From positions 1 through 36,418 of the IMG/VR virus record IMGVR_UViG_3300030329_005367: a DNA stretch of 36,418 nucleotides; one strand, written 5' to 3'. Both the position numbers and the translations under genes were made by a program. Shown piece by piece: positions 1,900 to 33,613 of the stretch (its first letter is position 1; each line of letters begins with the position of its first letter). The DNA is from a virus. The notes beneath the pieces are model-generated. The model was not told where the DNA came from, did not search any database, and was given only the letters and a program-made list of their open reading frames with translations.

Positions 1900-4524
1900 G
1901 TGCCTAAACAGATATATAATATAAGAGCTTTTCATGGTGGATTAAACAGTAACTCTGATGCTAGAGATATAGCTGAAAATGAATTACATGAAGCTGTAGA
2001 TATAATGGTTGATAAAATAGGTCAAACAAGGATGATGGGGGCAGCTTCTACTATGAGTCCTCCAGCTGCTAGGGCAAATTCTATTGAACCAGGATATGGA
2101 TTATTTCAATTTAGCCATGATAGGCTTGGAGCAAATGTTGTTTCTGCTGACTATAGTGGAACTCATACTGGATCTGATCACAGCACAATTATGACTGATA
2201 GTGCGGCTACATTTCCAGTAGATGGGTTAATTGGGGCAACAATAAATAACATTACTGATGGTAGCTCTGGCACTATTACAGATAATACGGCTACCACAGT
2301 AACTGCTACTTTGACTGGTGGTGATGATAATAGCTGGGACGATGCAAGCAATGATGCATACACAATAACTGATTTTCCCATAACTGGAGATGATTATTTA
2401 GCTTTTTCTGATCCAGATACTGATGGAAAAGTATCTATATATAGCAGGGTAAATAATGTTTGGAGTGATCCAATAACTGGAATGACTAATAATACTGGCG
2501 GGCAAAGAAAAGATATTTTTTATTTTGTTGATGGAAATTTAAGAATATGTGATTCTGAGTTTGGGAACACTAATACAAATAAATGGTATGGCTATGTTTC
2601 TAGATCTCATTTTACGATAGAAACAGATGGTTCAACTCTTAGTACAAAAATTGATTATTCAAAATGGATTTTATCAGACCAACAAATGCCTGCTCCTACC
2701 AGAGGTTTATTATTTAATAACACATCGGGAGTTACTGGATATGAAGCTAATGGTCAAACAACTGGAGGAACTTCTTCTACTACCCTTATAGATACAGGTG
2801 CCTTTGGAGGCTTTACAGACGCAGACTTTGTTGATAATGATTATATAGTTGGAAAAACTGCTGATTCTAAATATGCTACAATATCATCATGGGATAGTGC
2901 TAATCAATTAACAACTACAACTGTTCCAGGCGATTGGGAAAATAATGATTATTGGTTTATATATCCAGCACCTGGAACTGGATTTAACGTAACTTTATCT
3001 TGGTTAGGCTCTTCTGGTACGTGGGGAGACGCTATTGAGTATTCATTTGCTTCATCTTTTGTATATGATGACAATCAAGAAACAGATTTATATTATTTTA
3101 ACCAGACACATTCGTCAGTTAATAATGCTAGATTACTTCTTTCTTTTAGGTGTACAGGTAATTTTGATGCAAGATATACTGGTTATAGATTATATTATAG
3201 AGAAACTGGCTATAGAGATAGTCCCTGGCTATCTTTAGCTGAAATCAGCCTTATTAGAGGGGCTAGATCTGCAGAATCAGAAAGTTGGAGTGGCTGGACT
3301 CATTATTCTGGAGGATGGGAAGATAGCTCAGGAGTTAATGTAATACCACGTATGTGTAGTTGTCTAGTTATTAGTCCTACTACAGCTTTAACATATTCAA
3401 TATTAAGTGGTGTGCCTGAAGATAAAAGGATTACATCCCTTAAGTATAAAACTGCTGTTATTGCAAATAGAAGGGCTTATATAGGCAATGTTCAATATAC
3501 AGATAATAATTCAATAGTACATACAAAGGGAGACACTGTTATAAAATCTCCTGTAAATCAATTTGATATATTTAGCTTAATTGGAACACTTGAAGTAAGT
3601 ATAAATGATGGAGACAATATAGTTAAGCTTGAATCCTATGCAGATAGGCTTTTAATTTTTAAAAAGAAAAAATTAGAACTTTTAAATATTTCTCAAGAAA
3701 TAGAATTTGTAGAAGATATATTTATGCATAAAGGAGTTTCTCATCCTGCAGCAACTTGCGAAACTGATTTTGGTATAGCTTGGGTTAATGAGCAAGGTTG
3801 CTATCTATATGATGGACAAAGAGTTAATAATTTACTTGAAAAAGGTGGCAGACAAATAATAAAAGAAAGTGATTGGGCTACTTTTGCTACAGCAAATTCA
3901 ATGATTGGATACATTCCAAGCAAAAGGCAGATACTAGTTGTGAAAGATTGCACGCATTCAAGCGCTGGAGATGTCTTTCTTTATGATATAGTTACTCAAA
4001 GTTGGGTTTACGGAAATAGTAGGTGTTCAGATAGTATAAGGTTTACAAATTTTGTAACAGATTGGAATGGTGATTTAATCTATATAGAAACTGATGATAC
4101 TGGAACGCCTAAAAAATGGTCTGATGCCTCAGGATCAAGCACAGGATTACATATACAAACAAAAGATTTGGATTTTGGACAACCTGGAGTTAGAAAGAAA
4201 ATATATAAAGTCTATATAACTTATAGAGGTGATGCAAGCAATGTGCAAGTTAACTATGGATCAGACGGAGGAGCCTTGTCAGGAACTTTTTTTACTATAA
4301 CAAGTGGGACAGATGGATCTACAACTGGGGGAAGTGCTGCGGAAAAATGCTTAAAGAATGCAGGTACTGATGATTGGCTAAAAGCTGAATTAAAACCATC
4401 TGCATCTATAAATAACGTATCTAGCTTTCAATTGAAGTTACATAGTGATGGATCAAATGCTGTAGCAGCTGATTTTGAGATTGATTCAATTTCTATAGTA
4501 TATAGAACAAAGGGGATTAAGTGA
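1900..4524 (+). CDS. Tail nozzle / DNA-stabilisation-type virion protein
   Basis: This 874-aa protein starts at GTG behind GAGG. Its N-terminus (RAFHGGLNSNSDARDIAENE followed by EAVDIMVDKIGQTR) has the pattern of phage tail-tube or portal-plug proteins of the T7 gp12 / P22 gp10 kind: GGLN, then an NE-x-x-x-A stretch, then a G-x-x-R segment. The body is rich in beta strands. Two Gly/Thr/Ser-rich stretches (about residues 87-160 and 285-350) look like inserted beta modules. It would close or extend the tail below the portal in a short-tailed virion. It overlaps the next gene by one base. The family assignment rests on pattern and position, not on an alignment. Confidence 0.65.
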   Translation: MPKQIYNIRAFHGGLNSNSDARDIAENELHEAVDIMVDKIGQTRMMGAASTMSPPAARANSIEPGYGLFQFSHDRLGANVVSADYSGTHTGSDHSTIMTDSAATFPVDGLIGATINNITDGSSGTITDNTATTVTATLTGGDDNSWDDASNDAYTITDFPITGDDYLAFSDPDTDGKVSIYSRVNNVWSDPITGMTNNTGGQRKDIFYFVDGNLRICDSEFGNTNTNKWYGYVSRSHFTIETDGSTLSTKIDYSKWILSDQQMPAPTRGLLFNNTSGVTGYEANGQTTGGTSSTTLIDTGAFGGFTDADFVDNDYIVGKTADSKYATISSWDSANQLTTTTVPGDWENNDYWFIYPAPGTGFNVTLSWLGSSGTWGDAIEYSFASSFVYDDNQETDLYYFNQTHSSVNNARLLLSFRCTGNFDARYTGYRLYYRETGYRDSPWLSLAEISLIRGARSAESESWSGWTHYSGGWEDSSGVNVIPRMCSCLVISPTTALTYSILSGVPEDKRITSLKYKTAVIANRRAYIGNVQYTDNNSIVHTKGDTVIKSPVNQFDIFSLIGTLEVSINDGDNIVKLESYADRLLIFKKKKLELLNISQEIEFVEDIFMHKGVSHPAATCETDFGIAWVNEQGCYLYDGQRVNNLLEKGGRQIIKESDWATFATANSMIGYIPSKRQILVVKDCTHSSAGDVFLYDIVTQSWVYGNSRCSDSIRFTNFVTDWNGDLIYIETDDTGTPKKWSDASGSSTGLHIQTKDLDFGQPGVRKKIYKVYITYRGDASNVQVNYGSDGGALSGTFFTITSGTDGSTTGGSAAEKCLKNAGTDDWLKAELKPSASINNVSSFQLKLHSDGSNAVAADFEIDSISIVYRTKGIK

Positions 4525-8913: not shown

Positions 8914-11900
8914 ATGGCAACTGAAAGAGAAAAATATTTACAATATCTCAAAGAACAAAGAGAATTACTAGATCCAAATGTTTCAAGATTTGAAGGAAAT
9001 GCCTGGGATTTTGCAGGGCAAGCTTTATGGGGATTCATGGATCAAGCAACAATGGGAACTTTGGGTGTTTCTGACGCTATTAATGAGGCATATAAAGGTG
9101 ATGCTGCTAATACGTGGGAAGAAATGTTTGCAGGTGATGCTGCTGGATCCTATGAAGAGCTTCCTGATACTGGAAAAGCTGGATATGCTGTAGGAGCAGC
9201 ATTAGGGCAAATCCCTAGCTTTTGGCTAGGTGGCATGTTTACTAACGCTGCAGTAAAAGGAGTCGGTAAAATTGGTGCTGGTGGCGCTAAAATGGCAATT
9301 AAAAAATCTTCTAAGGAACTTGCAGAGCAAGCTGCAAAAATGCAAACTAGCAAAAGCGGTATAAGTGCAGCCAAATCAATTACTGATGATGTGGCTAAAA
9401 CTATTGTAGAAGACGCTTACAAATATTCAGCAGGTGCAAACTCAATAAGACAATTAGAAGGAAATATAGCTTCTGACTTGTATGAAAAAACAATGGTTGA
9501 TGGAATAAAAACAAATATAGCATCAACATTAAAAATTGCTGATGATGAAATATTAGAAGGATTAGCCAAGTCTACTTTTGATATTGTTACTAAAAATAAT
9601 CCAGATGATGCATTTTCTTTGCTGCAAATGCTAGTTGCTAAAGCTCCAGGAATAAGAAATACAGAATGGGGGCCAAGATTATTAGGCGCAATGGGTTATG
9701 ATGCAGCTATAGGGTTTACTTTAGGAACAATGAGAACTGGAGTGCAAGAGATTCAAAGATCTCAATGGGGTGTAGAACCTAATGAATATGGAGAAATGGT
9801 TAGATCTAAAGAGGCATATAAATTTGATGCTGGAAGGCTTGGAAAGAATTGGCTTACTAACGCTGTTTATGATGCAGCTTTATTTGCGCCTATGGGTGTA
9901 GCTCAATTTGTAAAAGGAGGCACTAGCGCAAATCATTTAAAAAGGCTAACTAATATGATACATACAAGCACTAAAGCATATTGGAAACCTTTAGCAAAGT
10001 ATACTAATACTGAATTAAGAGCTCAATTAACTGCTATGGATGAAATAGCTGGAGGATACCTCAACATAGGAAGAGGGACTAAATTTGAAAAAATGGGTGC
10101 AAGATGGTGGGTAGATGCAACAACTGATGCAGATAGCAAATTAATGCGTGAATATCTTGGAAAAATAAGAAGAGAATATGTAACAAAAGCCCCTATTGAA
10201 TGGACTAAAGAATTTGGAAAAGATGCAATAGGTTCTTTACCTAGAATGGCAACTGGTGTAGTTGCTATGCACGCTCCTCATGTAATTATGGCATTTACTA
10301 AACAAGGGCTAAGCGCTGAAACGTTTCAAAATGCTATGGGTGGCAGCATGCCAGAAATTGCTGCTAATATTTTTACAGCTATGTATTTTACTAAAAGGCC
10401 TCATAGTTTTCATGTTGAAGCTACTCCTGGGATGCTTAGTAAAATGTTTGAAACTGGGCAAATAAAAGACTATTATGGAGCTAAGCAAAGCAAGCTTAGG
10501 AAAATGCTTGGAGGGTTAAATACATTTGGAATTGAAAGAGACCAAATGATGAGAATTGTAAGTAGTTATAGTAGAAAAACGTTAGAAGACTATCAAGCTG
10601 AAGGAGGAGAATCAGTAATAAAACGTGCTATAGACAAATCTCCAGAATTAAATGAAATTAAATCTATTCTTTCTAGATATGAAAATAAAGCAGAAGTAGG
10701 TGGTGCTGATCTTAAAATCTCATTTGCTAAAAAGATACAAAATATGATTGAAAATAAAGAATTAACAGTTGATGATTCTTTATTGCTTTATGACAACTTA
10801 CTTGTTGCAGAAAAGATTTTAGAAACATATAACAATAACAATCCCAATACTATTGATTTAAATAATATTTCTCCTGACACTGCTTATGAATTGGTTACAA
10901 AATTAAGTAATATTGACTTTAATGGTGAAAAATTAAATAAATATAATTATAGAGAACAATTGAAATCTTGGACTGAAAATACAGTTCGTGATGCTGTAAG
11001 ACAGCCACAAGAGATTTTAAAGCAATATATTGTAGATATATATAAATCTTTAGGAATGGAAGATATTGATATTAATGAGTTTGGAGTTATTAAGGCTCCT
11101 AGATTGTCAAATATTGTGTTTGGAAATAAAGAACTTGAACACATATTTGCCACTATATATGAGAATGGTATAAAAAATAACTGGATAGACCCTCAAACAC
11201 CTCGTGATAGAACATTAACTACTATTGATGGAGAATTGCAAGGTAAGGCTAAATTTGTACATGATAATGCATCTGAAAGAATGATGAATCTAGTTTATGG
11301 AGAAAATTGGAAGAATAAAAGTATAGAGTATGATCCTTTAATATTAACTAATGAAGCTTGGCATACAAGTTTTGATACTTATTTAAAGATGGAGCAACAA
11401 AGAAATGCCTATGAAATATTAACAGAAGGTAAAAAACATAATGCTACAGTCCAAGAATCTACAGATTTATTAAATGCTATAGATAATTTAATGCTATCAA
11501 GACAAAAGCCCATTATTAATAAAGACGAAAGTGTAACTGATGTAGATTTTGGTGAACTTAGTTCTTTTATAGATAATTTGCATGAAATAACTATATCTTT
11601 AAACCCAGATATAAAAACTAAAGTTCCAAAAACTCTATCTCAACAAGAAGCTACAGGATTAATGGAAAAAGTTAATTCAATGATGGGCGATATTATGACT
11701 AATCCTGCTTCATTTAAAGACTTTAAACAGTATATATTTAACAAGTCTATAGATAGATTAGGCTTAAATGATATGACTACAGGTATAGATGCTAAGGCAA
11801 GCGTATTATCATTAAGAAATAATGTTGATTTTAATTATCAAGAAACTGGTACTAATATGATATTTCCTTCTAGAAATCGTATTGCCAAAAACCTTTTAAC

Positions 11901-14900
11901 AGCTTTACAAAGTAATAAAATATCTAGAGATGCTTATAACGAACTATTGTCTCATTATGATTCATTAATAGGAAATATTGGAGAATCTAGGTTTCCAATA
12001 CAATTTGATGATTTAGTTGTTGAGCCAAAAGATGCAGCTTGGATCAAGGCTTTAACAAAATCATTAGTTGATGGAAAGGATAAGATGGATGTATTTGCTA
12101 ATGATAAAGCTAGACAAACGTCTGAATTATTAGCTAATGAAGCTGACAAGCTAACTATGTTATATAATCAAATAGGAGTTGGTGTAGACTCTATAGATCC
12201 TGTTCAGCGTGATTTTGCTAGAAAGCAAATGGAAGAAATAGCAAGCAATAGAGATGCAACTATAAACTTAACATCTCTTATAAAAACAGCTTTATTAGAA
12301 AGAAATAAGCCTTTATTGGATGCTGTAGCTAGGAAAGAAGGTGATATTGTAAATGCTATAGAAATATTATCAAAAGACCCATTAAATTCAGATAGAGCTA
12401 AATATTTAACAGAAATACTAAAACTAGAACAAGATATTAGAACGGATGCTCAAAAGCAAATAATTAATGATGAAAGCCTTACAGAGTTAATTAGAAATGA
12501 ACTTTCACAATATGCTAAAGATATTCCAGAAAAAGACCTACAAGATTCTTCTTTAAGAATGACATCTTCACAATTTCAAGTAAAATATAATATATCACAT
12601 AAATACATTGACAACTTATTTGAAATTGATAGAAGCACTGTAATGACAGCTAAAGACTTACAATCAAATGCTCAAAAATTATTTGGAGAATATTGGGAAC
12701 TTTCAAGGAATATTGATAATCCTGACTTAAGATCTCAAGTTGAAACAGCTATACGTACATTAAAAGCTGCTTCTGGAGATGTACAATTAAGTGATGCTAA
12801 TTTTAATAACTTTATTGTAAAGCCTTTGAAGCTAGCAATGCAGATTGAAATAGACAAAATGCCTTTTAACAATAGATTTTCTTCAGACGTAATAGATGCT
12901 GATTTATATTCTATAACATCTTCATATTTTTCAAAAGTTCCAATTAAAACTTTAAAAGTAAATTTAAATAATAATTCATTAATACAAAATACTAAAGTAG
13001 TAGGAGATGTTCAAAGTAGAGGTATAATGGGAATTTTAAATTATTTAGATTCTAGCCAAAACAATATTTATTTAGCTGAAAATGCAGGTATAGATATTAA
13101 TGGAAAAACAATAAGAGATATTAATGGATTTGATTTAGATCAAATAAATGGAGCTTTAAATTCAGGAAATATGGATATAAAAAATCTAAAAGGAGAATCT
13201 GATTTTTATAAACATGGAGATCCCACCACATTAAAAGATAGGGATATGCGTGGTGCGGACATTAAAGCAAGATATAGAATTATTCCAATGAATGAAAAGA
13301 CTTCATTAATTGTAAGAATGGATAGAGGTAATAGCTCAGTTCATCAACAAATAAGAGCTCAATTTAGCAATGATGGCGAATTATACAAAAAGCTTTTAGC
13401 AACTATGGATGGAGACTTAACAACAGATTCAAAAAGAACTGTATTAGATTTATTGCACAATGTTAGGGCTGCAAAAACAGATGTAGACGTAGTTCAGGCT
13501 ATCAAGCTTACAAGATTGCTTCTTGATATGCCTCATGCTATAGAAAAAGTAGTTGATAATGGTCAGATAAATTTAGATCATCCATTTATAAAAGATACAT
13601 TTAAACGTGCAGGCTTAGTTGAAACTAAAAATGGCTTTGTTCCTACAAATAAAAATATAGGAAGATTTGCAAGTATGTATAAAAATGCAGATTCAGATCT
13701 TTATAAAGGGATACATAGAACTTTATCAAGAGATGGTTGGCTGACTCCAGACGCAGATGGTAATTATAAAAAGTTAAAAACCCTCTCTATAGATGATGAA
13801 GCTGGTAATTTAGTAGACTCTAATGGAGATCCTGTCTCTAATATATTTGATTCTTTAGCAAGGGCTAGAGTTGATTTAGATCAAAAGCTGAATAACAAAG
13901 AAATTGATCCTGATACTTATAAGCAAAATATAGATTTAATAGGAGATGCTACTAAATCAATAGTAGATGGAGAAATGTTTTTATCTAAAAATGCATATTT
14001 AATGGCTATGAGCATGATAGGCACTCATCCTGAAATGGTTAGAACAGATATAAATGGCAAGGTAATAGGCTTTAAATCAGGGGGAATAAAGCCAACAATT
14101 ACACATTCTGATATTAATTTTGACAAATCTTCTAGAGATTATGGAAGAGTTCAAACATGGTTTGGTAAAACTGCATTTAAATATAATCCTATATTAGATA
14201 AGATGATGAAAAACTTAGGAGTAGATGCTTTAACATTTAAATCTGGTAATAAGATTAATACATTGAAGCCTAGAAAAAATGCTGAATATGATGATATGTA
14301 TGCTAAAATTATTGGAAGTAATGAGCCTATGGATCTTGCTATGAATTGGGATAAATATTTAGCCAAAGGAAATATAGAAGATCCTGGTTCTAAAATTATA
14401 GAGCTTCCTTGGGAATCTATGAGCCTTAGAACTGTATCTAAAGAGCATGATCCTCTAGTAGGAGCCAATACAGGCGTTCATATGAGTCATGATAACGGTA
14501 TAGCTGATTGGATTGGAATAGATTCAAAGATTGCTTCTTATAATAAAGCTTTGTCAAATATGTACACTAATCCTTTTTACAAAACTGCATTAGCGCAAAG
14601 AGTACTAGGTGCTCAAGCAGAAACAGGCGATCCTAGTATGGTCAATAGCGCTGTAGCATCTATTTTAAAACGTGATGGAATTATCTTAGAGCCTTGGGCT
14701 CAGCAACGCCTAGAAAATTCAATGATAGGGTATTTTATGAATAATGGAGGAATTGCAGGAGGAATAGTTCCTAATGGATCTTTAGATGTTATGACTGCAG
14801 ATATGGGAAATTTAGATATAAGTGTAAGATCTAGTATTAATGGACGTAATACAGTTCAGTATTTTGGAGAGTTTCTTCCATCATATTATGCAGCTCAAAA

Positions 14901-17775
14901 GCAATTTATAAAACCTGGAGAAGATTTAAGTGGAGCTAATAATATATTAATTCAAAAAATTAAATATAAAGCTGAAAATAATACGGATAGAGAGGCTGAC
15001 GCTTTTATAACAACTATAGGAGATAAGAAATTTTTACAAGTAGAAGGTAGAGCTATAGATGAAAAAGGAAGAATACTTGAACTAGATGGCTTTACAGTTG
15101 TAGGACAGGAAAATCGTGTAAATGAAGGAGCATTTCAAAGGGCTAGTAAATTAGATGCTGAAGGCTTAGATATGATTGATTATGGAACTACATTAGCAGA
15201 AGCAGCTTTACAACTTCAAAATAAAAAACTTAGTATAGGCATGTTAAATAGTAGGCAGCCTAGAAACATGATTGGGGATATTGTTATTAGCAAAATGGCT
15301 ATAGTTGATGGAAAAGCCCATGTAGATGAAATAGCTGGTAACGTTAGCAGGATGAACCACATGGATGCAATAAAGCCTCAAGATGCTGATTTTGATATGG
15401 ATAAATCTTTTAACTTTGTAGCAGCTCCATCATTATTTTGGAGAGAAGCAAACAAATTAGCAGGTCATATTACTACAGAATCTGTAGATGGAGTTCTTAA
15501 TAAATTGTTTGATCCAAATGTAAACACAGGAAGATTTGCTAAATCTTTACCTGATTTACTTGGTGCTGATGCTACTAATGACCAAATTCTTCATGAAGTA
15601 AATAAAGCCAGAGGTCAATTTATAAAAATGCATCAAACTGCAACTTATCTTTCAAATATATTTAGACAAAATCCTACTGTATTACAATTTAGCGCTAATT
15701 TTGTTGAAGGCTATAATAAAGCTTTAACTGTTAGGTTAAATCAAAATGGAAACTATATTAGTACTGTAGACAATATATCAAGAATGGCTAAAGAATATAT
15801 TGATGTTTATAAAAATCTTCCATCTAAACAATCTGCAGAACAGATTAGAGATATTCAAAATAAAATATTTTTTGGAGAAAATGGAATATTTGATGTAATG
15901 ATTGAAAGTAAAGATGCACCAGGAAATTACAAAAAAGTTGATATTAATCTTACAGATCCTCAATATAGAAGAATACAAGAGTCTATAAGGAAAAGAATAA
16001 TTAATCCTTTAAATAAATATCTCAAATATAATAGAGGTGTTCATGAGGATCCTGGTTCAGGCGTTCAGCAAAAAGCAGTTATAAAAAATTATAATGATTC
16101 TTTTGTAGAGCTTTATAACACAATGGATACAAACAACTTAATTGATATTCCTGATGGAGTAGATATAAATGCTGGATTGGTATCTATGGCAGATTATTTC
16201 AAATTTTCTAGAAATCCTTATGATGTGGCTATGAAAGGCCTTCATGAAACTTATCAAAAAACTACTGCTATGAAAGAAGAAGGTGCTTTTGGTAGAGGTA
16301 TGAATGAAGCTATGGAAATAAAGCAATATATTGATAATGGATATATTGAACGGCCTAACATGAGTCAACTTGAAATAGAAAACAAATTATTTAATACAGC
16401 ACTTAAAGAATATGTAAAAGATGAAAGTAGGATTATTAGATTAAATGATTTAGCAAGGCAAGAAACTAATTTAAAGCTTGAAATAGAAAAGAAAAGAGCA
16501 TTTGTTAAAAACGATTTAGATGATAATTTGGAAATTACAAGGTTAAATGAAAAACTTGGAAGAGTTCAAAATCTTAAAACTGAAATGGAAGAAGCGTTAT
16601 CTTATATGTTTAAAGACAATTTTATAGAACAGCCAGAAACTGTAAAATATAATCCAGGTTATAAATCTGGACGATTAACTCCATTTGACAAACCTTATGT
16701 TATTTTAAATAAAGCTGGTAATATTAAAGAAGTAATAAATGTTGGTAATTACAATAGAAATGACATCTATCCTTCAGATAAAATTGTAGTAAATGGAAGA
16801 AGGTTTCAAGTTACAGATGGAGAAACGCAAAAAGGATTAAGAATATTGTCAGAAGCCTTTTCTGGACTTCCAGTTCTTACAGATGAAGCAGGTAATTTTA
16901 GAAAAATTACTAAAAATGAATTTGAATACATTAATAATGACTACAAATCTATAGTAGCTCAAATTATGCAATTACAAGATATTCCTAGAGTTGGAAGGGA
17001 AGGGATTGCTAATTTTTCATTACAAAGGGAACGTATATTATATGATAGATTGTTTAATGAGCCTAAGGTTGCTGCAGATGAAGTTTATAGAAAAGCTTTA
17101 ATTATGCAAATGATAAATCCATATATATCTGATAAAGTAGTCTCAGTAAGGGCATTGAATGACAATTCTGGCAAAAGAGCTGTATATGATTATATGTATA
17201 CAGAAAATGCTTTAAGCGAACCTGTTATAAGTTTATTGGCAAAAATACAATCAGGAGAGCATAAAGGAGATCAGAAATTTGCTAAAGAAGTTTTAGATGA
17301 TATTAATAAGCTAAAAACAGTAGCATTATTAAAAACAGAAAATCCTAATATTGATTTTAATTTAGTAAAAGCTAGAATGTTTACTGAGCCTGCAAGTATA
17401 GATGGCTTTATGACTAAAGACAAATATTTAAATCAAGATATATATGACAAAACAAAAGCTTCTGATGAAATAGTTAGAACTGCTGCAGAAGTAATGGTAA
17501 ATTATGCAAATGGAGAAGGTTTAGTAGATCCAGTACTACTTTATAAAGCATCTGTAACTATGGCAAAAAATGGTATTGATTATGGAGTACAATGGTCAAA
17601 CAAGCGTGTTATTGCAGATTCTGACGGGATTGCTAGAGATTTTGGAATTAAAGAAAGATTAATTACAGAGATAGATGCTATTAATCGTAAAGATCTTGGA
17701 GAAAAAGGCGGTCAAGGAGAGTCTTCAAGTGAAAGAATTAAGAATTTATTTGACTGTTATAAAATAAGGAATTAA
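8914..17775 (+). CDS. Giant virion protein with a two-barrel (crAss-like) RNA polymerase signature
   Basis: This 2953-aa protein (about a quarter of the window) starts at ATG behind AGGAGAG. Near the N-terminus (about residues 80-120) is a Gly/Ala-rich hydrophobic stretch like those of ejection proteins. The key region is near residue 2110: LNSRQPRNMIGDIV (R2114, P2116), then DGKAHVDEIAG, then KPQDADFDMDKSFNFV, with D2159, D2161, D2163 and K2164. Cellular RNA polymerase beta-prime has LNRAPTLHR, then EGKAIQLHP, then NADFDGDQ in the same order, and crAss-like polymerases have RxP followed by DFDIDK. The three Asp would bind the catalytic Mg. A Lys/Gly-rich block at 1715-1781 (GKVIGFKSGGIK, FGKTAFKYNP, GVDALTFKSGNKI) is a candidate for the first barrel. 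No T7-type polymerase motifs seen. Expected role: packaged in the virion, injected, transcribing early genes. The motifs are seen; the polymerase activity and packaging are inferred. Confidence 0.8.
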   Translation: MATEREKYLQYLKEQRELLDPNVSRFEGNAWDFAGQALWGFMDQATMGTLGVSDAINEAYKGDAANTWEEMFAGDAAGSYEELPDTGKAGYAVGAALGQIPSFWLGGMFTNAAVKGVGKIGAGGAKMAIKKSSKELAEQAAKMQTSKSGISAAKSITDDVAKTIVEDAYKYSAGANSIRQLEGNIASDLYEKTMVDGIKTNIASTLKIADDEILEGLAKSTFDIVTKNNPDDAFSLLQMLVAKAPGIRNTEWGPRLLGAMGYDAAIGFTLGTMRTGVQEIQRSQWGVEPNEYGEMVRSKEAYKFDAGRLGKNWLTNAVYDAALFAPMGVAQFVKGGTSANHLKRLTNMIHTSTKAYWKPLAKYTNTELRAQLTAMDEIAGGYLNIGRGTKFEKMGARWWVDATTDADSKLMREYLGKIRREYVTKAPIEWTKEFGKDAIGSLPRMATGVVAMHAPHVIMAFTKQGLSAETFQNAMGGSMPEIAANIFTAMYFTKRPHSFHVEATPGMLSKMFETGQIKDYYGAKQSKLRKMLGGLNTFGIERDQMMRIVSSYSRKTLEDYQAEGGESVIKRAIDKSPELNEIKSILSRYENKAEVGGADLKISFAKKIQNMIENKELTVDDSLLLYDNLLVAEKILETYNNNNPNTIDLNNISPDTAYELVTKLSNIDFNGEKLNKYNYREQLKSWTENTVRDAVRQPQEILKQYIVDIYKSLGMEDIDINEFGVIKAPRLSNIVFGNKELEHIFATIYENGIKNNWIDPQTPRDRTLTTIDGELQGKAKFVHDNASERMMNLVYGENWKNKSIEYDPLILTNEAWHTSFDTYLKMEQQRNAYEILTEGKKHNATVQESTDLLNAIDNLMLSRQKPIINKDESVTDVDFGELSSFIDNLHEITISLNPDIKTKVPKTLSQQEATGLMEKVNSMMGDIMTNPASFKDFKQYIFNKSIDRLGLNDMTTGIDAKASVLSLRNNVDFNYQETGTNMIFPSRNRIAKNLLTALQSNKISRDAYNELLSHYDSLIGNIGESRFPIQFDDLVVEPKDAAWIKALTKSLVDGKDKMDVFANDKARQTSELLANEADKLTMLYNQIGVGVDSIDPVQRDFARKQMEEIASNRDATINLTSLIKTALLERNKPLLDAVARKEGDIVNAIEILSKDPLNSDRAKYLTEILKLEQDIRTDAQKQIINDESLTELIRNELSQYAKDIPEKDLQDSSLRMTSSQFQVKYNISHKYIDNLFEIDRSTVMTAKDLQSNAQKLFGEYWELSRNIDNPDLRSQVETAIRTLKAASGDVQLSDANFNNFIVKPLKLAMQIEIDKMPFNNRFSSDVIDADLYSITSSYFSKVPIKTLKVNLNNNSLIQNTKVVGDVQSRGIMGILNYLDSSQNNIYLAENAGIDINGKTIRDINGFDLDQINGALNSGNMDIKNLKGESDFYKHGDPTTLKDRDMRGADIKARYRIIPMNEKTSLIVRMDRGNSSVHQQIRAQFSNDGELYKKLLATMDGDLTTDSKRTVLDLLHNVRAAKTDVDVVQAIKLTRLLLDMPHAIEKVVDNGQINLDHPFIKDTFKRAGLVETKNGFVPTNKNIGRFASMYKNADSDLYKGIHRTLSRDGWLTPDADGNYKKLKTLSIDDEAGNLVDSNGDPVSNIFDSLARARVDLDQKLNNKEIDPDTYKQNIDLIGDATKSIVDGEMFLSKNAYLMAMSMIGTHPEMVRTDINGKVIGFKSGGIKPTITHSDINFDKSSRDYGRVQTWFGKTAFKYNPILDKMMKNLGVDALTFKSGNKINTLKPRKNAEYDDMYAKIIGSNEPMDLAMNWDKYLAKGNIEDPGSKIIELPWESMSLRTVSKEHDPLVGANTGVHMSHDNGIADWIGIDSKIASYNKALSNMYTNPFYKTALAQRVLGAQAETGDPSMVNSAVASILKRDGIILEPWAQQRLENSMIGYFMNNGGIAGGIVPNGSLDVMTADMGNLDISVRSSINGRNTVQYFGEFLPSYYAAQKQFIKPGEDLSGANNILIQKIKYKAENNTDREADAFITTIGDKKFLQVEGRAIDEKGRILELDGFTVVGQENRVNEGAFQRASKLDAEGLDMIDYGTTLAEAALQLQNKKLSIGMLNSRQPRNMIGDIVISKMAIVDGKAHVDEIAGNVSRMNHMDAIKPQDADFDMDKSFNFVAAPSLFWREANKLAGHITTESVDGVLNKLFDPNVNTGRFAKSLPDLLGADATNDQILHEVNKARGQFIKMHQTATYLSNIFRQNPTVLQFSANFVEGYNKALTVRLNQNGNYISTVDNISRMAKEYIDVYKNLPSKQSAEQIRDIQNKIFFGENGIFDVMIESKDAPGNYKKVDINLTDPQYRRIQESIRKRIINPLNKYLKYNRGVHEDPGSGVQQKAVIKNYNDSFVELYNTMDTNNLIDIPDGVDINAGLVSMADYFKFSRNPYDVAMKGLHETYQKTTAMKEEGAFGRGMNEAMEIKQYIDNGYIERPNMSQLEIENKLFNTALKEYVKDESRIIRLNDLARQETNLKLEIEKKRAFVKNDLDDNLEITRLNEKLGRVQNLKTEMEEALSYMFKDNFIEQPETVKYNPGYKSGRLTPFDKPYVILNKAGNIKEVINVGNYNRNDIYPSDKIVVNGRRFQVTDGETQKGLRILSEAFSGLPVLTDEAGNFRKITKNEFEYINNDYKSIVAQIMQLQDIPRVGREGIANFSLQRERILYDRLFNEPKVAADEVYRKALIMQMINPYISDKVVSVRALNDNSGKRAVYDYMYTENALSEPVISLLAKIQSGEHKGDQKFAKEVLDDINKLKTVALLKTENPNIDFNLVKARMFTEPASIDGFMTKDKYLNQDIYDKTKASDEIVRTAAEVMVNYANGEGLVDPVLLYKASVTMAKNGIDYGVQWSNKRVIADSDGIARDFGIKERLITEIDAINRKDLGEKGGQGESSSERIKNLFDCYKIRN

Positions 17776-17778
17776 TAA

Positions 17779-20769
17779 ATGAGTATTTGGACATGCGGTA
17801 TCCATGCTTTTGGTAAAAAGCGAGAAGATAAAATGTCTTCTAAGGATAAAAATGAAATTGCAAATAGAATGCAGAAAATTGCAGATGATTGGTCTAATTC
17901 AAAAAACAATAGATATAAAAATGTTAAAGATGCTAATTGGAATAATCATGAAACCTTTGAATGGCTTTGGGAAAAGTATACTCATAAACCTTTAAATCCT
18001 TCAGAATTTCCTGTTAATTTTAAAGACATTAGAAAGTTTGAAGCTGGACTAGACTATTATAATCAAAAAATATCTAGCCCAAGAGGTATATTTGCCTCTA
18101 AGTTTCATTTACCTAGAGCCGCAATGCAAAATGTACCTGAACTCAAAAAATTTGAAACAGAATTACTTAATGAAACATCATTTTATCGTGATTATTCTAA
18201 TGAAACTAATAGACAAGTAAATGACTTTTTAGATAGTTTTAAGAATTTTTCTCTTGAAGAAGGTGCGAAGCCTATGACAATCGACAGGTTAGGCAGCGCA
18301 GGGAGAAATGAGTTAGTAAAAATTCAAAAAGAATATGAATCTTTAAGACAGGCATGGTTAACATCTACCAATAAAGACCAAATTGCACGATTAAGCAAGG
18401 CTTTACGTGAAAATAGGGGGAAAGTAAGGGATTTTTATAATACAGGCTCTGGAGAGGCATTTAAGATAGTTAATAGTGTTTTGCAAGGAGCTGATATAGA
18501 TACTATTACAAGAGCTGATGGCAGCCCTATATCTAATTCTCAAAAAGCATCTTTAAATAAAATGCTTGATAATTATTTTATGATTCGTAAGGCTGGCGTA
18601 ACAGGCCTTGTAAGGGGTTTGCAGAAAATAAAAAGCTTAGCTAGAGATAAAAACCTACAATGGGTTGATGGGACTGTTAATCGCATTAATGGTCTTATAA
18701 AATCTATTGAATTTCAGCATATGGTAGATGAAAGTGGAACGGTTACTGATTATAAGAATTTACAATCAGAAAGAGATTTTTTAGAATTAGGATTTAAAGC
18801 TGATGATAGATATTCAAATAATGGAAATGTAAAATTTTCTAAACATTATATGTCCCAATATACGCTAGGAATTTTAAAAACAGTTAAAGATTTAGAGCAA
18901 TCTGTTCATGACAATAAGCTTTCTTTAGATCAGAAGATACAAACTGAAATTGATAGCTTTGAATCTATTGTAAATGTTGCAAAAAATAGATCTCCTATAT
19001 TAAATCCAGTATATGATAATGATCCTTATTTTTTCTTAAAAAAATATGTTAATGATGTAGGAGTGTTTAATTATAAAGCTCATGTTAAAAGCACATTTAA
19101 AAAAGCTGTAGATGCTATAACTAATGAACATTTAAATCCAGCAAAAGAAAAAGGTCGAGGAGATCTAGTTGAAACTGCTCAAGATATGAAGCAATTATTG
19201 CACGATGTTTATTCTGAAATACAGCATATGGATCCAAATATGGATAGTAATGTTAGTAACATGATGAGAATTATGACATCTGTTACCTATTTTAGATTGA
19301 TGGGTGGCAACGTAAGATCTGCCGCCAGAAATGCTACTCAAAGGTTATGGGAATGGGTTGAATTTGGTGGTAGAGCCGCTGCTCCATTTATAGGGCAAGC
19401 TCAAAGATGGTATGGGCAATCTGGTGGAGCTACGGAAAATGCATCTAAATTAGACAGGCAATTGAAAAGATTTGGACTTCAGTGGTTTGATGGGAAAAGT
19501 AAAGCTTCTAATGCTTGGGATGCTTTTAAAGGAAAAGATTCTGATATAAGCCAACAAAGTCGTGGAGCTTTAGAGCAATCTTATATGAAAGATAAAACTT
19601 TATATGTGGATGAAAATGGAGAACTTGCTATACGTGGTAAAGATAAAATATCAGAATCAGGAGCCAGAATAGCTGCTAACATAGCTGGTACTGCTGGAAA
19701 ACTTCATAAAATAGTTGAAGATTGGAACAGATCTAAAACTTTTAGAATAGGATTTTCTTTAGCTTATCAGAATTTACAATCAACAAGCAATACTTTTAAA
19801 GCTCAAGAAATTTTAAAAGGAGCTGCTGCTGATAAAATAATGGCTATAAAAGGTAAAGATTATCAAATTACATATAATGATTTGCAAGCAAAATATGGAG
19901 CAGATACTAGAAAAGTTATTGATAATTGGATAGAAAAACAAGCTGGACAAATGGCATATAATTCTACTTTAGATGTTCATTTCGAATATGCTAAATGGAA
20001 TAAAGCAAAAGCTATTAAAGCTACTAAAGAAAATACAAAAGCTGCTGGATTTGCTAAAATGGGACTTGGTCAGTTTGCACATTATCGTTTTAATATGATA
20101 AATTTAATGCATAGATGGTTTAGAGAAGCAGGTATATCTATAAAGGCTGGGGATTTTAGAAGTGAAGAGCTTATGAGGCCTTTACGATATGGAATAGTAC
20201 AATCTATGTTATTTGGCGCAACAATTGCTGCAAGGACTAATTTTCAAAAATTAGCTCCAGATGAAACTAAAGAATTTTCAAAAACAGTTTATACTTGGCT
20301 TACTACTGATAGAAATGATCCTGAGCAATTAAAGAAATTAGATAAAGCTACATATGGACAAGGAGGTTTTTATTTTTTAGGGCCTAATGTCAATTATGGT
20401 ATGAGCTTATATGAATTAATAACACATTCATCTATGGGTGAAAGGAAAGATGAACGTACTCAATTTGCTCATATGGAATCTATTAAAAAAGGCATTAAAA
20501 GAGATAAAAATCAAGAATTATATGAAAAACTTGCTGTAATTAATTCTCAATTGGCAAGAAGCACAGCTTATACTTATGAAGTTTTAAAAGGAGGCGGAGG
20601 ATTAAAGGATGCTATATATTTAGAATTAGGACTGTTTCCTGACAAAGAGCAAAAAGAACATTCTAAATGGCTTTGGCGTACCAAAAAGAAAAAAAGAAAA
20701 AAGCTTATTAAAAAAACCACTAGCGCTTATGATAGAGATGCAGCAATTAGCGCATTATCAGGACTATAG
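17779..20769 (+). CDS. Large ejection-type virion protein (996 aa)
   Basis: This is the last gene of the left late block, 3 nt after the giant polymerase-like gene, with AAGGAATTAATAA before the ATG. It is long, helical and basic overall. The C-terminal third carries amphipathic and small-residue stretches (RPLRYGIVQSMLFGATIAAR; TYGQGGFYFLGPNVNYGMSL) like the ends of large polyvalent or internal virion proteins. The last 30 residues are very basic (WLWRTKKKKRKKLIKK). Its role could be DNA or polymerase delivery through the envelope, or structural support in the virion core. No catalytic motif recognised. Confidence 0.55.
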   Translation: MSIWTCGIHAFGKKREDKMSSKDKNEIANRMQKIADDWSNSKNNRYKNVKDANWNNHETFEWLWEKYTHKPLNPSEFPVNFKDIRKFEAGLDYYNQKISSPRGIFASKFHLPRAAMQNVPELKKFETELLNETSFYRDYSNETNRQVNDFLDSFKNFSLEEGAKPMTIDRLGSAGRNELVKIQKEYESLRQAWLTSTNKDQIARLSKALRENRGKVRDFYNTGSGEAFKIVNSVLQGADIDTITRADGSPISNSQKASLNKMLDNYFMIRKAGVTGLVRGLQKIKSLARDKNLQWVDGTVNRINGLIKSIEFQHMVDESGTVTDYKNLQSERDFLELGFKADDRYSNNGNVKFSKHYMSQYTLGILKTVKDLEQSVHDNKLSLDQKIQTEIDSFESIVNVAKNRSPILNPVYDNDPYFFLKKYVNDVGVFNYKAHVKSTFKKAVDAITNEHLNPAKEKGRGDLVETAQDMKQLLHDVYSEIQHMDPNMDSNVSNMMRIMTSVTYFRLMGGNVRSAARNATQRLWEWVEFGGRAAAPFIGQAQRWYGQSGGATENASKLDRQLKRFGLQWFDGKSKASNAWDAFKGKDSDISQQSRGALEQSYMKDKTLYVDENGELAIRGKDKISESGARIAANIAGTAGKLHKIVEDWNRSKTFRIGFSLAYQNLQSTSNTFKAQEILKGAAADKIMAIKGKDYQITYNDLQAKYGADTRKVIDNWIEKQAGQMAYNSTLDVHFEYAKWNKAKAIKATKENTKAAGFAKMGLGQFAHYRFNMINLMHRWFREAGISIKAGDFRSEELMRPLRYGIVQSMLFGATIAARTNFQKLAPDETKEFSKTVYTWLTTDRNDPEQLKKLDKATYGQGGFYFLGPNVNYGMSLYELITHSSMGERKDERTQFAHMESIKKGIKRDKNQELYEKLAVINSQLARSTAYTYEVLKGGGGLKDAIYLELGLFPDKEQKEHSKWLWRTKKKKRKKLIKKTTSAYDRDAAISALSGL

Positions 20770-22262: not shown

Positions 22263-22280
22263 TTATTTCTCCTTTAATAT

Positions 22281-22358
22281 TAAGGGGGCAGCTAGTTGGA
22301 TCAGTGTGAATACACTATGCTATGATCTGTTCTATCAAGGTTGAAGCGTACCCCCTTA
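22281..22358 (-). promoter_or_regulatory. Structured intercistronic RNA element
   Basis: An 8-bp stem closes the element (TAAGGGGG 22281-22288 with CCCCCTTA 22351-22358 on the + strand). Read as - strand RNA, it encloses a short hairpin TGAT/ATCA and a second hairpin AGTGT-ATTC-ACACT. It begins 6 nt after the stop of the upstream gene and ends 18 nt before the next ATG. No T-tract follows, and the SD of the next gene sits in the gap. Confidence 0.65.
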
Positions 22359-22364
22359 TAGTTA

Positions 22365-23153
22365 TTATGCTACGGCTTTACACAAGCCATCTACAATTAT
22401 CTGATTTTGATTATAAGATGCAACTGTAGGATTTTCTTTATGCCAAAGTATATCTGTTCCAGCATTTAAAAGTTCCCATCCATTGTAATCTACTTTCTTA
22501 GATGTATATTTATCAATCAATTGACCCCATAGTCCAACAGGTAAGTCAGATAGATAAGAATGTCTTAATTCAGAAAGCTTTTTCATATCTATATTAAGAT
22601 TGTTTAATTTTCTAAGACTAGATATAAATTCGTCTATCTTATAACTTCCATTGGATATATTATTAAGGTTAGTGACGATTTGCTTTAAATTTTCATCCCA
22701 ATTCTCAGATGTAGGTTCATGCTTAAATCTATATGTGCTGAAATGATCTTTACTCATCATTCCATTAGTGCATACTAATCTAAATAACATTAGAGAGTAT
22801 CCAAAGGATCTACTTCCGTCATAACTATTCCAGAATTGCATTCCTAAAGCCACATCATCATCAACATCTATGCTTCCAACAACTTCAGGTGATCTCATAG
22901 AATATATATACTGTCTTCCATTAAAGAAAGTTTTATCATGTACAAATTCTATATCACATTCTTCAGCTACTTGTTTTGCAGCTTTTTTCACTTCTTCATT
23001 TGGTAACAACATATAGCTACTACCAACAACTCCACATTCTTTCCAGTCAGCAACCATAGTTGGACTTGGATGATTCATTTGAACCGAAAATGCAGATGAT
23101 TTTACGCCATTATAATCTAATGGTACTTTTCTTATTGGTAAATAAGGGTTCAT
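22365..23153 (-). CDS. DUF932 (TIGR03299-type) phage/plasmid protein
   Basis: This 262-aa protein has hallmarks of the DUF932 family found on phages and plasmids: an early VPLDYNGVKS segment, GSSYMLLPNEEV, and the central block GMQFWNSYDGSRSFGYSLMLFRLVCTNGM, here split by a phage-typical spacer. Its length is typical for smaller family members. The role is unknown, though it usually sits among replication and recombination genes as here. It overlaps the end of the preceding small gene by 4 nt (ATGA), with GGAG upstream. The next gene downstream is separated by a structured element. Confidence 0.65.
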   Translation of the reverse strand: MNPYLPIRKVPLDYNGVKSSAFSVQMNHPSPTMVADWKECGVVGSSYMLLPNEEVKKAAKQVAEECDIEFVHDKTFFNGRQYIYSMRSPEVVGSIDVDDDVALGMQFWNSYDGSRSFGYSLMLFRLVCTNGMMSKDHFSTYRFKHEPTSENWDENLKQIVTNLNNISNGSYKIDEFISSLRKLNNLNIDMKKLSELRHSYLSDLPVGLWGQLIDKYTSKKVDYNGWELLNAGTDILWHKENPTVASYNQNQIIVDGLCKAVA

Positions 23154-27326: not shown

Positions 27327-27327
27327 A
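27312..27327 (+). promoter_or_regulatory. CRP-like palindrome
   Basis: TGTGACGAAGATCACA has perfect TGTGA-N6-TCACA half sites, the consensus shape for the CRP/FNR family of host regulators. It overlaps the proposed GTG start of the 60-aa gene and lies 15 nt from the neighbouring stem-loop. Ten fixed bases make a chance match uncommon but not rare in 36 kb. No -10/-35 pair is evident beside it. Confidence 0.3.
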
Positions 27328-27342
27328 CAGACAAGGAAATAA

Positions 27343-27375
27343 TAGGGGGAACTCGATATAATCTAACTCCCCCTA
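27343..27375 (-). promoter_or_regulatory. Short intercistronic stem-loop
   Basis: A perfect 8-bp stem (TAGGGGGA 27343-27350 with TCCCCCTA 27368-27375) has a 17-nt loop. On the - strand it starts 10 nt after the stop of the 74-aa gene. The following TTATTTCCTTG is only weakly T-rich, so it may act as a weak terminator or as the small form of the intercistronic element family. Its 5' side and loop (GGGGAGTT, then TCGAG) resemble the hairpin at 30555-30584. Confidence 0.6.
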
Positions 27376-27385
27376 CATCCTCCAA

Positions 27386-29711: not shown

Positions 29712-29732
29712 ATAGGGGGATTAAATCCCTAT
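29712..29732 (-). promoter_or_regulatory. Hairpin before the TTG-start gene
   Basis: ATAGGG (29712-29717) pairs with CCCTAT (29727-29732), and additional GAT/ATC pairing is possible inside. It ends 17 nt before the TTG start on the - strand. It is the last of three consecutive hairpins after the 64-aa gene. Confidence 0.5.
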
Positions 29733-29739
29733 AATCTTT

Positions 29740-29799
29740 GGAGGGAAATTATACTGCTTACGTTTCTCGGTGTCCACAGTTTCCAATTAATCTCCCTCC
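29740..29799 (-). promoter_or_regulatory. Structured intercistronic RNA element
   Basis: A 7-bp stem (GGAGGGA 29740-29746 with TCCCTCC 29793-29799) can extend through ATTA/TAAT and GAAA/TTTC pairs. On the - strand its interior includes CGAGAAACGTAAGCA, resembling CGAGGGAGCGTAAGCA near 30527-30542. No T-tract follows. Confidence 0.55.
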
Positions 29800-29809
29800 G
29801 CCATTTAGG

Positions 29810-29856
29810 CTAATCTAATCCTTAGAGAGGAAATTCCGACTTTTTCCATAGATTAG
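29810..29856 (-). promoter_or_regulatory. Structured intercistronic RNA element
   Basis: An 8-bp stem (CTAATCTA 29810-29817 with TAGATTAG 29849-29856) encloses about 31 nt containing GGAAATTCC. It starts 7 nt after the stop of the 64-aa gene on the - strand and is the first of three hairpins in a 169-nt gap without genes. Confidence 0.5.
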
Positions 29857-29863
29857 ACCCAAA

Positions 29864-30058: not shown

Positions 30059-30155
30059 ATATCTCCTGTATTATATCATTAATTGCTACATCTTTTGCAT
30101 ATTTTTCTTGTGCTTCTTCAGAAATATACATTTCATCTAATGTTGGAAGGGTCAT
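30036..30155 (-). CDS. Very small acidic protein
   Basis: This 39-aa frame starts at ATG with AAGGAG 6 nt upstream and overlaps the next gene by 23 nt. It is acidic and helical (PTLDEMYISEEAQEKYAKD) with a hydrophobic end (EEIII). It is the first gene after a 500-nt non-coding tract. SD and overlap support it. Function unknown. Confidence 0.5.
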   Translation of the reverse strand: MTLPTLDEMYISEEAQEKYAKDVAINDIIQEIYGEEIII

Positions 30156-30193
30156 TATTTCTCCTTATGTTGGTTATAGTTAGTGAAATTTAT

Positions 30194-30228
30194 GCCACAG
30201 CAGGTCTAGACAATGCATAAGCTATGGC
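30194..30228 (-). promoter_or_regulatory. Stem-loop with TCTAGACC loop
   Basis: GCCATAGC and GCTGTGGC (read on the - strand; + 30221-30228 and 30194-30201) form an 8-bp stem with one G-U pair. The 19-nt loop contains TCTAGACC, which recurs in the loop of the adjacent stem-loop and, with one change, in the element at 25708-25803. Confidence 0.5.
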
Positions 30229-30231
30229 AAA

Positions 30232-30282
30232 GGTTATCAGGTAAATGGATGGTCTAGAAGTCCACCGAAAGCTTAGATAACC
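30232..30282 (-). promoter_or_regulatory. Stem-loop with internal hairpin and TCTAGACC loop
   Basis: GGTTATC (30232-30238) pairs with GATAACC (30276-30282). Inside, on the - strand, GGTGG and CCATC form a hairpin of five pairs whose loop contains TCTAGA. It is adjacent to the stem-loop at 30194-30228, and the two share the loop sequence. Confidence 0.5.
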
Positions 30283-30460
30283 ATATCAAACAGGGATTTT
30301 ACACTTAATATTATAATAGGACAGCTAGCCTGATTACTGCAATTAACCTATATAATACAGAGGTGTTATGATTGATATATTTAATTTTGTGGAGCTCATC
30401 TGGTGCTATTCATGATTATCCAGTTTTCCCAGTTTCGACACTGCAGCTACGTTGGTTTTA

Positions 30461-30539
30461 TCTCCCTGTTTACTGTTGCTCCTTGGTAACCAATTTGTTG
30501 GGGAGAGTTAGCAGACACTTTTGCCTTGCTTACGCTCCC
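30461..30539 (-). promoter_or_regulatory. Three-arm alternative pairing region
   Basis: On the - strand the order is GGGAG (30539-30535), CTCCC within CTCTCCCC (about 30505-30501), then GGGAGA (30466-30461). The middle arm can pair with either flanking arm, giving two exclusive stems. The downstream version contains TTGG-TAA-CCAA as an inner hairpin. Such an arrangement can switch between two folds; no ligand core is recognised. Confidence 0.4.
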
Positions 30540-30554
30540 TCGTCGTGAAATTAT

Positions 30555-30584
30555 AGGGGAGAAACCTCGAAGTTAAACTCCCCT
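30555..30584 (-). promoter_or_regulatory. Short stem-loop
   Basis: AGGGGAG (30555-30561) pairs with CTCCCCT (30578-30584) as a perfect 7-bp stem with a 16-nt loop. On the - strand it reads GGGGAGTTTAACTTCGAGG, similar in stem and loop to the hairpin at 27343-27375 and to the 5' arm of the element at 31045-31102. Confidence 0.5.
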
Positions 30585-30624
30585 TATCGCAGTATGGTTG
30601 TTATGAATAGGACTATACTACAAT

Positions 30625-30665
30625 AGCGTTACCAAAAGCGTTACTTGTAGTTACCACAGCGTTAC
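30625..30665. repeat. Short direct repeats of AGCGTTAC
   Basis: AGCGTTAC occurs exactly at 30625-30632, 30637-30644 and 30658-30665, with a degenerate copy (TAGTTACC) between the last two, at roughly 10-12 nt spacing. The last copy overlaps the stop codon of the zinc-finger gene. Spacing close to one DNA turn suggests protein binding sites in tandem (operator or origin-type iterons). Confidence 0.5.
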
Positions 30666-31913: not shown

Positions 31914-32006
31914 GTAGAGGTGAAGTTGGGTTTCGCCATCATACAAGGCTCCGTTCCCTTTCGCCTGCCAGCTAATCGTTCACTACCAAGTATTTTTACC
32001 TCTTAC
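31914..32006 (-). promoter_or_regulatory. Structured RNA element adjacent to the 133-nt element
   Basis: GTAGAGGT (31914-31921) pairs with ACCTCTTAC (31998-32006) apart from one bulged T. The - strand again carries the purine arm first. The region just inside the 3' arm holds one copy of a 22-bp repeat shared with the divergent control region. Confidence 0.5.
31922..31943. repeat. 22-bp repeat, copy 1
   Basis: On + the sequence is GAAGTTGGGTT, then TCG, then CCATCATA. It matches the copy at 33274-33295 at 20 of 22 positions (differences at repeat positions 12 and 14). Both copies lie 200-275 nt upstream of the start of a - strand gene. Confidence 0.6.
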
Positions 32007-32349: not shown

Positions 32350-32420
32350 TGCGGTGACAGGAGTCGAACCTGCTATCTCTTGGTTATGAGCCAAGCATGT
32401 AAACCGTTTCACCCCACCGC
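32350..32420 (-). tRNA. tRNA with CAT anticodon (Met, fMet or Ile2)
   Basis: On the - strand the 71-nt sequence folds as a tRNA. The acceptor GCGGTGG pairs with TCACCGC (one G-U). A 5-bp anticodon stem, CTTGG/CCAAG, holds loop CTCATAA with anticodon CAT. The T arm GCAGG-TTCGACT-CCTGT has the usual TTCGA loop, with discriminator A. The D arm is weak and short (GTGA/TTAC with loop AACGGT). CCA is not encoded. It lies alone in a non-coding stretch of the early region. CAT could decode Met, initiate, or (after lysidine modification) decode ATA, a codon heavily used here. Confidence 0.85.
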
Positions 32421-33000: not shown

Positions 33001-33092
33001 TATATATTCCTTTCATTATTAATTAATTAATTAACTCTAAAAATAATCAAAAAAAATCAAATCAAAAATAACGTAAAAGTGATAACGAAAAT

Positions 33093-33106
33093 CCCCTGTT
33101 AAGGGG
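33093..33106. promoter_or_regulatory. Short GC hairpin in the control region
   Basis: CCCCT (33093-33097) and AGGGG (33102-33106) with loop GTTA. It is isolated in very AT-rich DNA, about 93 nt upstream of the first early start. It could be a polymerase recognition hairpin or a transcript 5' stem. Confidence 0.4.
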
Positions 33107-33197
33107 GTACCAATATAAATAACACCACACACCAAAATCCTATAATTTTTAAAACCTTTTCATTTCATTCTAAATATCTTTGCAATTATCATTAACA

Positions 33198-33231
33198 ATA
33201 GTATATTACTATATCGGTAGTATAATACTAT
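33198..33231. promoter_or_regulatory. AT-rich palindrome
   Basis: ATAGTATATTACTA (33198-33211) and TAGTATAATACTAT (33218-33231) are inverted copies with two mismatches around a 6-bp centre. A dimeric regulator could bind it, or it could extrude as a hairpin. It lies midway in the divergent region. Confidence 0.5.
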
Positions 33232-33273
33232 CACCCAGATAGTACCCCTGTGTAGGTTCTGCTAAATGGGTCA

Positions 33274-33295
33274 GAAGTTGGGTTGCCCCATCATA
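33274..33295. repeat. 22-bp repeat, copy 2
   Basis: GAAGTTGGGTT, then GCC, then CCATCATA; 20 of 22 positions match the copy at 31922-31943. Here it lies within ATGGG/CCCAT ends that could form a small stem. Confidence 0.6.
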
Positions 33296-33409
33296 TAGAT
33301 GTAAGGATTCCCCCGATAACCGATAGAAATTGCTTAATTATAAGCTTAGGATATGGGAGTTAATTACTGGTCTTAAGTGAAGTTTTGAGTTAAAGATCCA
33401 AAAAAAGTG

Positions 33410-33426
33410 CCCCTGGTGCTCAGGGG
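33410..33426 (+). promoter_or_regulatory. Hairpin in the leader of the late operon
   Basis: CCCCTG (33410-33415), loop GTGCT and CAGGGG (33421-33426) form a strong 6-bp stem. It ends 25 nt before the first late start; a second small stem (GATAG/CTATC) lies between. Confidence 0.5.
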
Positions 33427-33451
33427 ATAGCTCTATCTAAATGGAGATATT

Positions 33452-33613
33452 ATGGCGAAAAAAGAATACAAGCTAGTTATAGATTATGATTGTGAAGATC
33501 ATGATAAAACTGGTATGGATCGTGTTTGGCTTGACACTGGTGAAAGAGTAATACAATTACCTGTAGAATTATTACCTTATTTAGAAGATTCTGAGATACT
33601 TGGAATTGCCTAA
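33452..33613 (+). CDS. First gene of the right late block, small acidic protein
   Basis: This 53-aa frame starts at ATG with TGGAGATATT upstream. It is acidic (DYDCEDHDKTGMDRVWLDTG), with a beta-like centre and hydrophobic end (VIQLPVELLPYLEDSEILGI). A GC-rich hairpin follows within 8 nt of its stop. The SD and location at the start of the operon support it. Function unknown. Confidence 0.55.
   Translation: MAKKEYKLVIDYDCEDHDKTGMDRVWLDTGERVIQLPVELLPYLEDSEILGIA

Follow-up and report, generated by a model that had tools for sequence, protein, structure and literature searches.

The 2953-aa protein of an uncultivated, short-tailed-type phage is, by computation, homologous to and fold-matched with two-barrel RNA polymerases; its catalytic residues are intact, and its gene lies in a late position. 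There is strong reason to place it in the two-double-psi-barrel superfamily, as a DNA-dependent RNA polymerase in a single chain carried within a large late virion protein, which is probably packaged, injected, and used to transcribe the early genes; the polymerase activity, the DNA template, packaging, injection, and early-gene transcription are what we infer here. The initial observation is correct, and its reading stands for the most part; the polymerase is a highly diverged relation of the two-barrel enzymes found in cells and in crAss-like phages. The window, meaning the whole stretch of DNA analyzed, is a linear virus record of 36,418 bases, and the positions of its relevant features are collected in Table 1.

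Table 1. Positions of the polymerase, its parts, and selected neighboring genes in the window
Feature	Residues	Nucleotides	Strand	Basis or remark
Entire 2953-aa protein, with the two-barrel polymerase between N- and C-terminal regions	1-2953	8914..17775	+	single open frame; ~3000-aa homologues
N-terminal region	1-1340	8914..12933	+	composition, hydropathy
Polymerase region (outer limits approximate)	1380-2460	13051..16293	+	AlphaFold model, Foldseek
First-barrel (beta-type, DPBB-B) segment	1664-1800	13903..14313	+	conservation, profile blocks; aligns with phi14:2 gp66 residues 943-1073
Invariant first-barrel Lys	K1726, K1752, K1780	14089-14091, 14167-14169, 14251-14253	+	family alignment
Second-barrel (beta-prime-type, DPBB-A) segment (limits approximate)	1955-2190	14776..15483	+	conservation, models, profile blocks
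LNSRQPRN	2111-2118	15244..15267	+	R2114 and P2116 invariant; counterpart of RIPNQ in crAss polymerases
Presumed catalytic DADFDMDK	2157-2164	15382..15405	+	counterpart of SDFDIDK in phi14:2 gp66
Long helix containing ARGQFIKMHQ of the near clade	2222-2249	15577..15660	+	AlphaFold model
C-terminal region	2461-2953	16294..17772	+	family comparison, AlphaFold model
996-aa protein		17779..20769	+	in relatives with enough sequence, a homologue follows the polymerase directly
874-aa protein		1900-4524		relatives encode homologues of about 840-1360 aa; no family match
DUF932 protein		22365-23153	-	early block
tRNA-Met(CAT) gene		32350-32420	-	inside the early region

Fold, profile, and conservation of the polymerase core

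The initial annotation had proposed a two-barrel polymerase from five motifs, LNSRQPRN, DGKAHVDEI (residues 2132-2140), DADFDMDKSF (residues 2157-2166, nt 15382-15411), FGKTAFKYNP (residues 1750-1759), and LTFKSGNKI (residues 1773-1781), and all of them stand at the residues it gave, within the one 2953-aa open frame. Its remark that the lysine after the third aspartate follows the crAss-like form is likewise correct, as phi14:2 gp66 has SDFDIDK. D2159, D2161, and D2163 are presumed to bind metal, with K2164 adjoining them, and the helix at residues 2222-2249 is a bridge-helix candidate. The polymerase reading is supported by three lines of evidence, namely, the structural match, the collinear profile match, and the retention of the aspartate triad in relatives.

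A model of residues 1380-2560 (1181 residues) built by AlphaFold2 with the family alignment has a pLDDT of 79 and a pTM of 0.75, and its top Foldseek match in the PDB is 6VR4, the phi14:2 virion RNA polymerase (E=1.9e-7, prob 1.00), followed by QDE-1. Nearly all of the 50 matches listed are two-barrel polymerases or their complexes (RNA polymerases II and I, RDR2, and related enzymes); low in the ranking stands a single entry whose title names an influenza polymerase complex. With a separate core model of residues 1680-2260 (581 residues; pLDDT 82, pTM 0.77), 6VR4 leads again (E=2.7e-4); entries for RDR2, QDE-1, archaeal polymerases, and Pol I come next, and unrelated proteins appear only at E > 0.3. 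Against predicted viral structures, the 17 matches at E<=1e-3 are proteins of the A0A516 series and of crAss-like phages, one of the latter annotated as "Putative RNA polymerase". Superposed as wholes, the models fit poorly (rmsd > 20 A; TM-scores, by query length, of 0.28 and 0.36), so that Foldseek recognizes the fold without recovering how the domains are arranged overall. As to the double-psi topology of the barrels, what the 1181-residue model shows is strands at model residues 576-677 and 728-789, in a structure that superposes poorly on known enzymes. The predicted structure agrees with the proposed assignment in its matches to two-barrel polymerases, 6VR4 leading with both models, and the catalytic loop (residues 2155-2162) is modeled at a pLDDT below 50.

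Sequence profiles point in the same direction. As the whole-core comparison with the crAss polymerases, for which an alignment was built from 80 loci, is not significant by itself (hhalign, E=0.03-0.19), a block-wise test was used, in which 48 blocks of the window protein were paired with 20 of the crAss core (960 pairs). The top independent pairs, window residues 1763-1788 with gp66 1048-1073, 2155-2165 with 1357-1367, and 1664-1703 with 943-980, have P-values of 6e-4 to 1e-3 and are collinear between the two proteins. With a deeper profile and a loosened alignment threshold, the path covers most of the core (E=0.03 for one comparison) and pairs SILKRDGIILEPWAQQRLENSMIGY...GSLDVMTADMG of the window protein with SIQKNLPIEAMPGIKDKLYNIVFSK...GGSFIQLSNFG of gp66. 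A match to a known two-barrel profile had been proposed as a check, and what emerges is this collinear block match, first barrel included. The comparison favors homology with the crAss polymerases, not decisively by itself, and the two cores are likely homologous.

The 2953-aa protein has no real match in Pfam, PHROGs, or PDB sequences, and no relative was found in the prokaryote genome contigs scanned. Single-sequence and profile searches of IMG/VR instead retrieve about 40 nonredundant ~3000-aa homologues from uncultivated viruses, the full-length ones spanning about 2940-3210 residues. Among the IMG/VR sequences are 37 distinct catalytic cores with a canonical loop and several more with altered flanks. 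The family falls into two clades with about 20-25% identity in the core. When 18 near and 14 far members are compared, the best-conserved stretches across both clades are 1681-1860 and 2101-2190, and K1726, K1752, K1780, R2114, P2116, D2157, D2159, D2161, D2163, and K2164 are invariant in all 32 aligned relatives. The Lys/Gly-rich block at 1715-1781, which had been suggested to be the first barrel, therefore holds its place: it lies within the first of these stretches, contains the three invariant lysines, and is profile-collinear with gp66.

Many relatives were retrieved through the pattern PQDADFD, and as that pattern itself contains aspartates, the aspartates of these relatives are partly selected. 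As a control for this bias, five long relatives that do not contain P-Q-D-A-D-F-D were retrieved by means of KTA[YF], a pattern of the first barrel. All five keep D-x-D-x-D-K (TQDADFDLDK, HDADNDFDK at two loci, SDYDYDK, and QDADHDFDK), as well as R-x-P and the remaining two lysines of the first barrel; the phenylalanine of the loop changes, and the aspartates and lysine are constant. Loss of the three aspartates in relatives had been named as grounds for abandoning the assignment, and they are kept in the 32 aligned relatives and in these five. As DADFDLDK also occurs by chance in the unrelated polysaccharide-export protein Wza in the PDB (E=0.28), the string alone is weak evidence, and the case for the motif, as judged from alignments, is its conservation in relatives beyond the bare string.

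Late position and the case for packaging

The polymerase gene has the same orientation as the structural genes and stands near the close of the late block, where only the gene for the 996-aa protein follows it. In relatives it is found downstream of the terminase, portal, and capsid genes of the late block. A RusA-type resolvase, the DUF932 protein, a primase-helicase, an ERF annealing protein, and an endonuclease VII-like protein are encoded on the opposite strand at 20.9-33.7 kb, in keeping with the initial view that the polymerase gene stands apart from the early genes. The window's right end carries genes for a terminase small subunit, an endolysin, and a partial terminase large subunit. 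Searches of Pfam and PHROGs assign no recognized function to the window's genes immediately upstream of the polymerase; relatives L032 and L027 have a gene for a lytic-transglycosylase protein one or two genes ahead of the polymerase. Residues 1-1340, of which the first 130 are Gly/Ala-rich by composition and in which hydropathy predicts no transmembrane segment, are presumed to be the virion or ejection part of the protein.

Virion packaging and injection are plausible from the late-operon position and the adjacent lytic-transglycosylase genes in some relatives. In the proposed mechanism, the beta-type barrel (about residues 1664-1800) would contribute conserved lysines, and the beta-prime-type barrel (about residues 1955-2190) would contribute D2159, D2161, and D2163 for the catalytic Mg2+ ions. 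The protein would be packed in the capsid and enter the cell ahead of or with the DNA, and it would then transcribe the early genes of the opposite strand (about 20.9-33.7 kb) without the host polymerase. Precedent for such host-independent early transcription is given by phi14:2 gp66, a virion enzyme in a phage whose early transcription is rifampicin resistant (PMC10136315), and by gp96 of Thermus phage P23-45, a virion polymerase fused to the tail tape measure (PMC10770324). The parallel with both is one of functional analogy, joined in the crAss case by likely homology of the polymerase core.

It is conceivable, and in our view unlikely, that the two-barrel polymerase stays out of the virion and is instead synthesized during infection to serve middle or late transcription, its fusion to a large protein having some other purpose. 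Nonvirion two-barrel polymerases are known in phages, for example, P23-45 gp64 (PMC10770324). Such a role is, however, hard to reconcile with a gene at the end of the late block and away from the replication genes, with neighboring lytic-transglycosylase proteins in relatives, which are typical of ejection machinery, and with a large fused N-terminal part that resembles the N4, crAss-like, and P23-45 virion polymerases.

The 996-aa protein has no PHROG or Pfam match; counting the window's own, 37 ORFs of the family set match it, and throughout the family a homologue of about 1000 aa comes after the polymerase. It is possible that it is a partner of the polymerase or a second injected protein.

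Relationship to known polymerases and phages

The closest parallels are the crAss-like virion polymerases, including phi14:2 gp66 (PDB 6VR4; PMC10136315, PMC7886860). The window polymerase shares with them a single chain with the beta-type barrel before the beta-prime-type barrel, an R-x-P ahead of the catalytic loop, the (A/S)DFD-x-DK signature, a location in a large late-block protein, the best fold match, and the collinear profile blocks. It differs in sitting about 800 residues deeper in its chain (the second loop aspartate is residue 2159, versus 1361 in gp66), and tblastn with the window core matches no crAss-like phage record. Judged on the window's relatives, capsid type and genome size differ as well.

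That the virus is itself a divergent crAss-like phage (order Crassvirales) with the usual virion polymerase is a reading we hold to be quite improbable, even though the phi14:2 enzyme is the closest solved structure, the lysine after the third aspartate takes the crAss form, and a distant P22-type portal is found in crAss-like phages too. As the window lacks capsid genes of its own, the capsid test was made on relatives, which carry a terminase in 15 of 20 records and a P22-type portal and an SU10-type capsid protein in 15 of 21 each. The SU10 capsid model that matches these family records matches none of 12 crAss-like records and no control genome. Portal matches reach E-values of 1e-29 to 1e-51 in the family, against 3e-13 at best in crAss-like records, and family records are no longer than 61 kb, except for one of 83 kb, compared with about 89-104 kb for the sampled crAss-like records. 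The SU10-type capsid and P22-type portal of the relatives thus speak for placing the virus outside Crassvirales.

P23-45 gp96 likewise joins a two-barrel polymerase to a giant virion protein, but its polymerase is N-terminal in the tape measure of a long-tailed phage, its loop reads DFDGD without the lysine, and it is absent among the PDB fold matches listed for the 1181-residue model. Size and gene position link the window protein with N4 gp50 (Schitoviridae), a virion polymerase of about 3500 aa whose gene stands where the late block ends, next to the replication genes. N4 gp50 is a T7-type single-subunit enzyme without double-psi barrels. Pfam finds no T7-type (PF00940) polymerase in the 2953-aa protein, and a search run without a positive control finds none in 21 family records. 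The next-best fold matches, the RNA-interference polymerases QDE-1 and RDR2, are single-chain two-barrel enzymes too, and differ in having no fused virion part. They are eukaryotic, and their templates are largely RNA. The window polymerase is thus not of Crassvirales by the capsid test, not of the P23-45 layout, and not N4-type.

It would be very improbable that the core is a degenerate or repurposed two-barrel fold that comes from a polymerase but now serves ejection purely as a structural or DNA-binding element. Extreme divergence and the low predicted confidence of the catalytic loop could be read that way, but the three aspartates, the next lysine, R-x-P, and three first-barrel lysines are invariant or nearly so at about 20-30% identity, also in relatives not chosen by the aspartate motif. 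That the motif arose by chance in an ejection protein of other descent is barely credible, since the occurrence in Wza and the nonsignificant whole-core profile match, which might suggest it, are set against the fold matches, the collinear profile blocks, and conservation in relatives not selected by motif.

As tblastn of 50,697 GenBank phage records with three cores, the window protein's and two from the far clade, returns no relative, and no Pfam or PHROG model covers the family, we regard it as an unsampled branch with a different fusion layout. The suggestion of a separate branch of virion polymerases, made at the outset, holds up. The chances seem evenly balanced that this is a further virion-packaged two-barrel lineage, distinct from the crAss-like, P23-45-like, and jumbo-phage ones, with the polymerase set centrally in a ~3000-aa ejection protein of phages that have a P22-type portal and an SU10-type capsid, and accompanied across the family by a ~1000-aa protein, possibly a component of an injected transcription complex. 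No earlier description of the group was found in the open literature covered, which did not extend to the 2021 Nature paper on gp66 or to the 23-family supplementary alignment of PMC10770324, where an earlier mention is possible. Single-chain two-barrel polymerases inform the origin of cellular RNA polymerase. To our knowledge, few such families have been characterized. With this one, it would become testable by what route so large an enzyme gets out of a short-tailed particle and whether polymerase and ejection protein were fused more than once.

Other features of the window

The 874-aa protein is likely a tail protein; its gene was considered as the portal gene and rejected, as in relatives another gene encodes the portal. 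Repeated early-region elements were searched for a promoter for the polymerase, and no convincing family emerged. A 22-nt repeat, GAAGTTGGGTTTCGCCATCATA, occurs with 91% identity at 31922-31943 and 33274-33295, in two noncoding early-region stretches, and is a possible regulatory element. Rfam finds one tRNA and no other family in the early region. Three early intergenic stretches on the minus strand (22263-22364, 27327-27385, and 29715-29863) form long stems more stable than shuffled sequences (z of about -2.5 to -2.9). Two apparently noncoding stretches, 30059-30661 (603 bases) and 33001-33476 (476 bases), are long for a compact phage genome.
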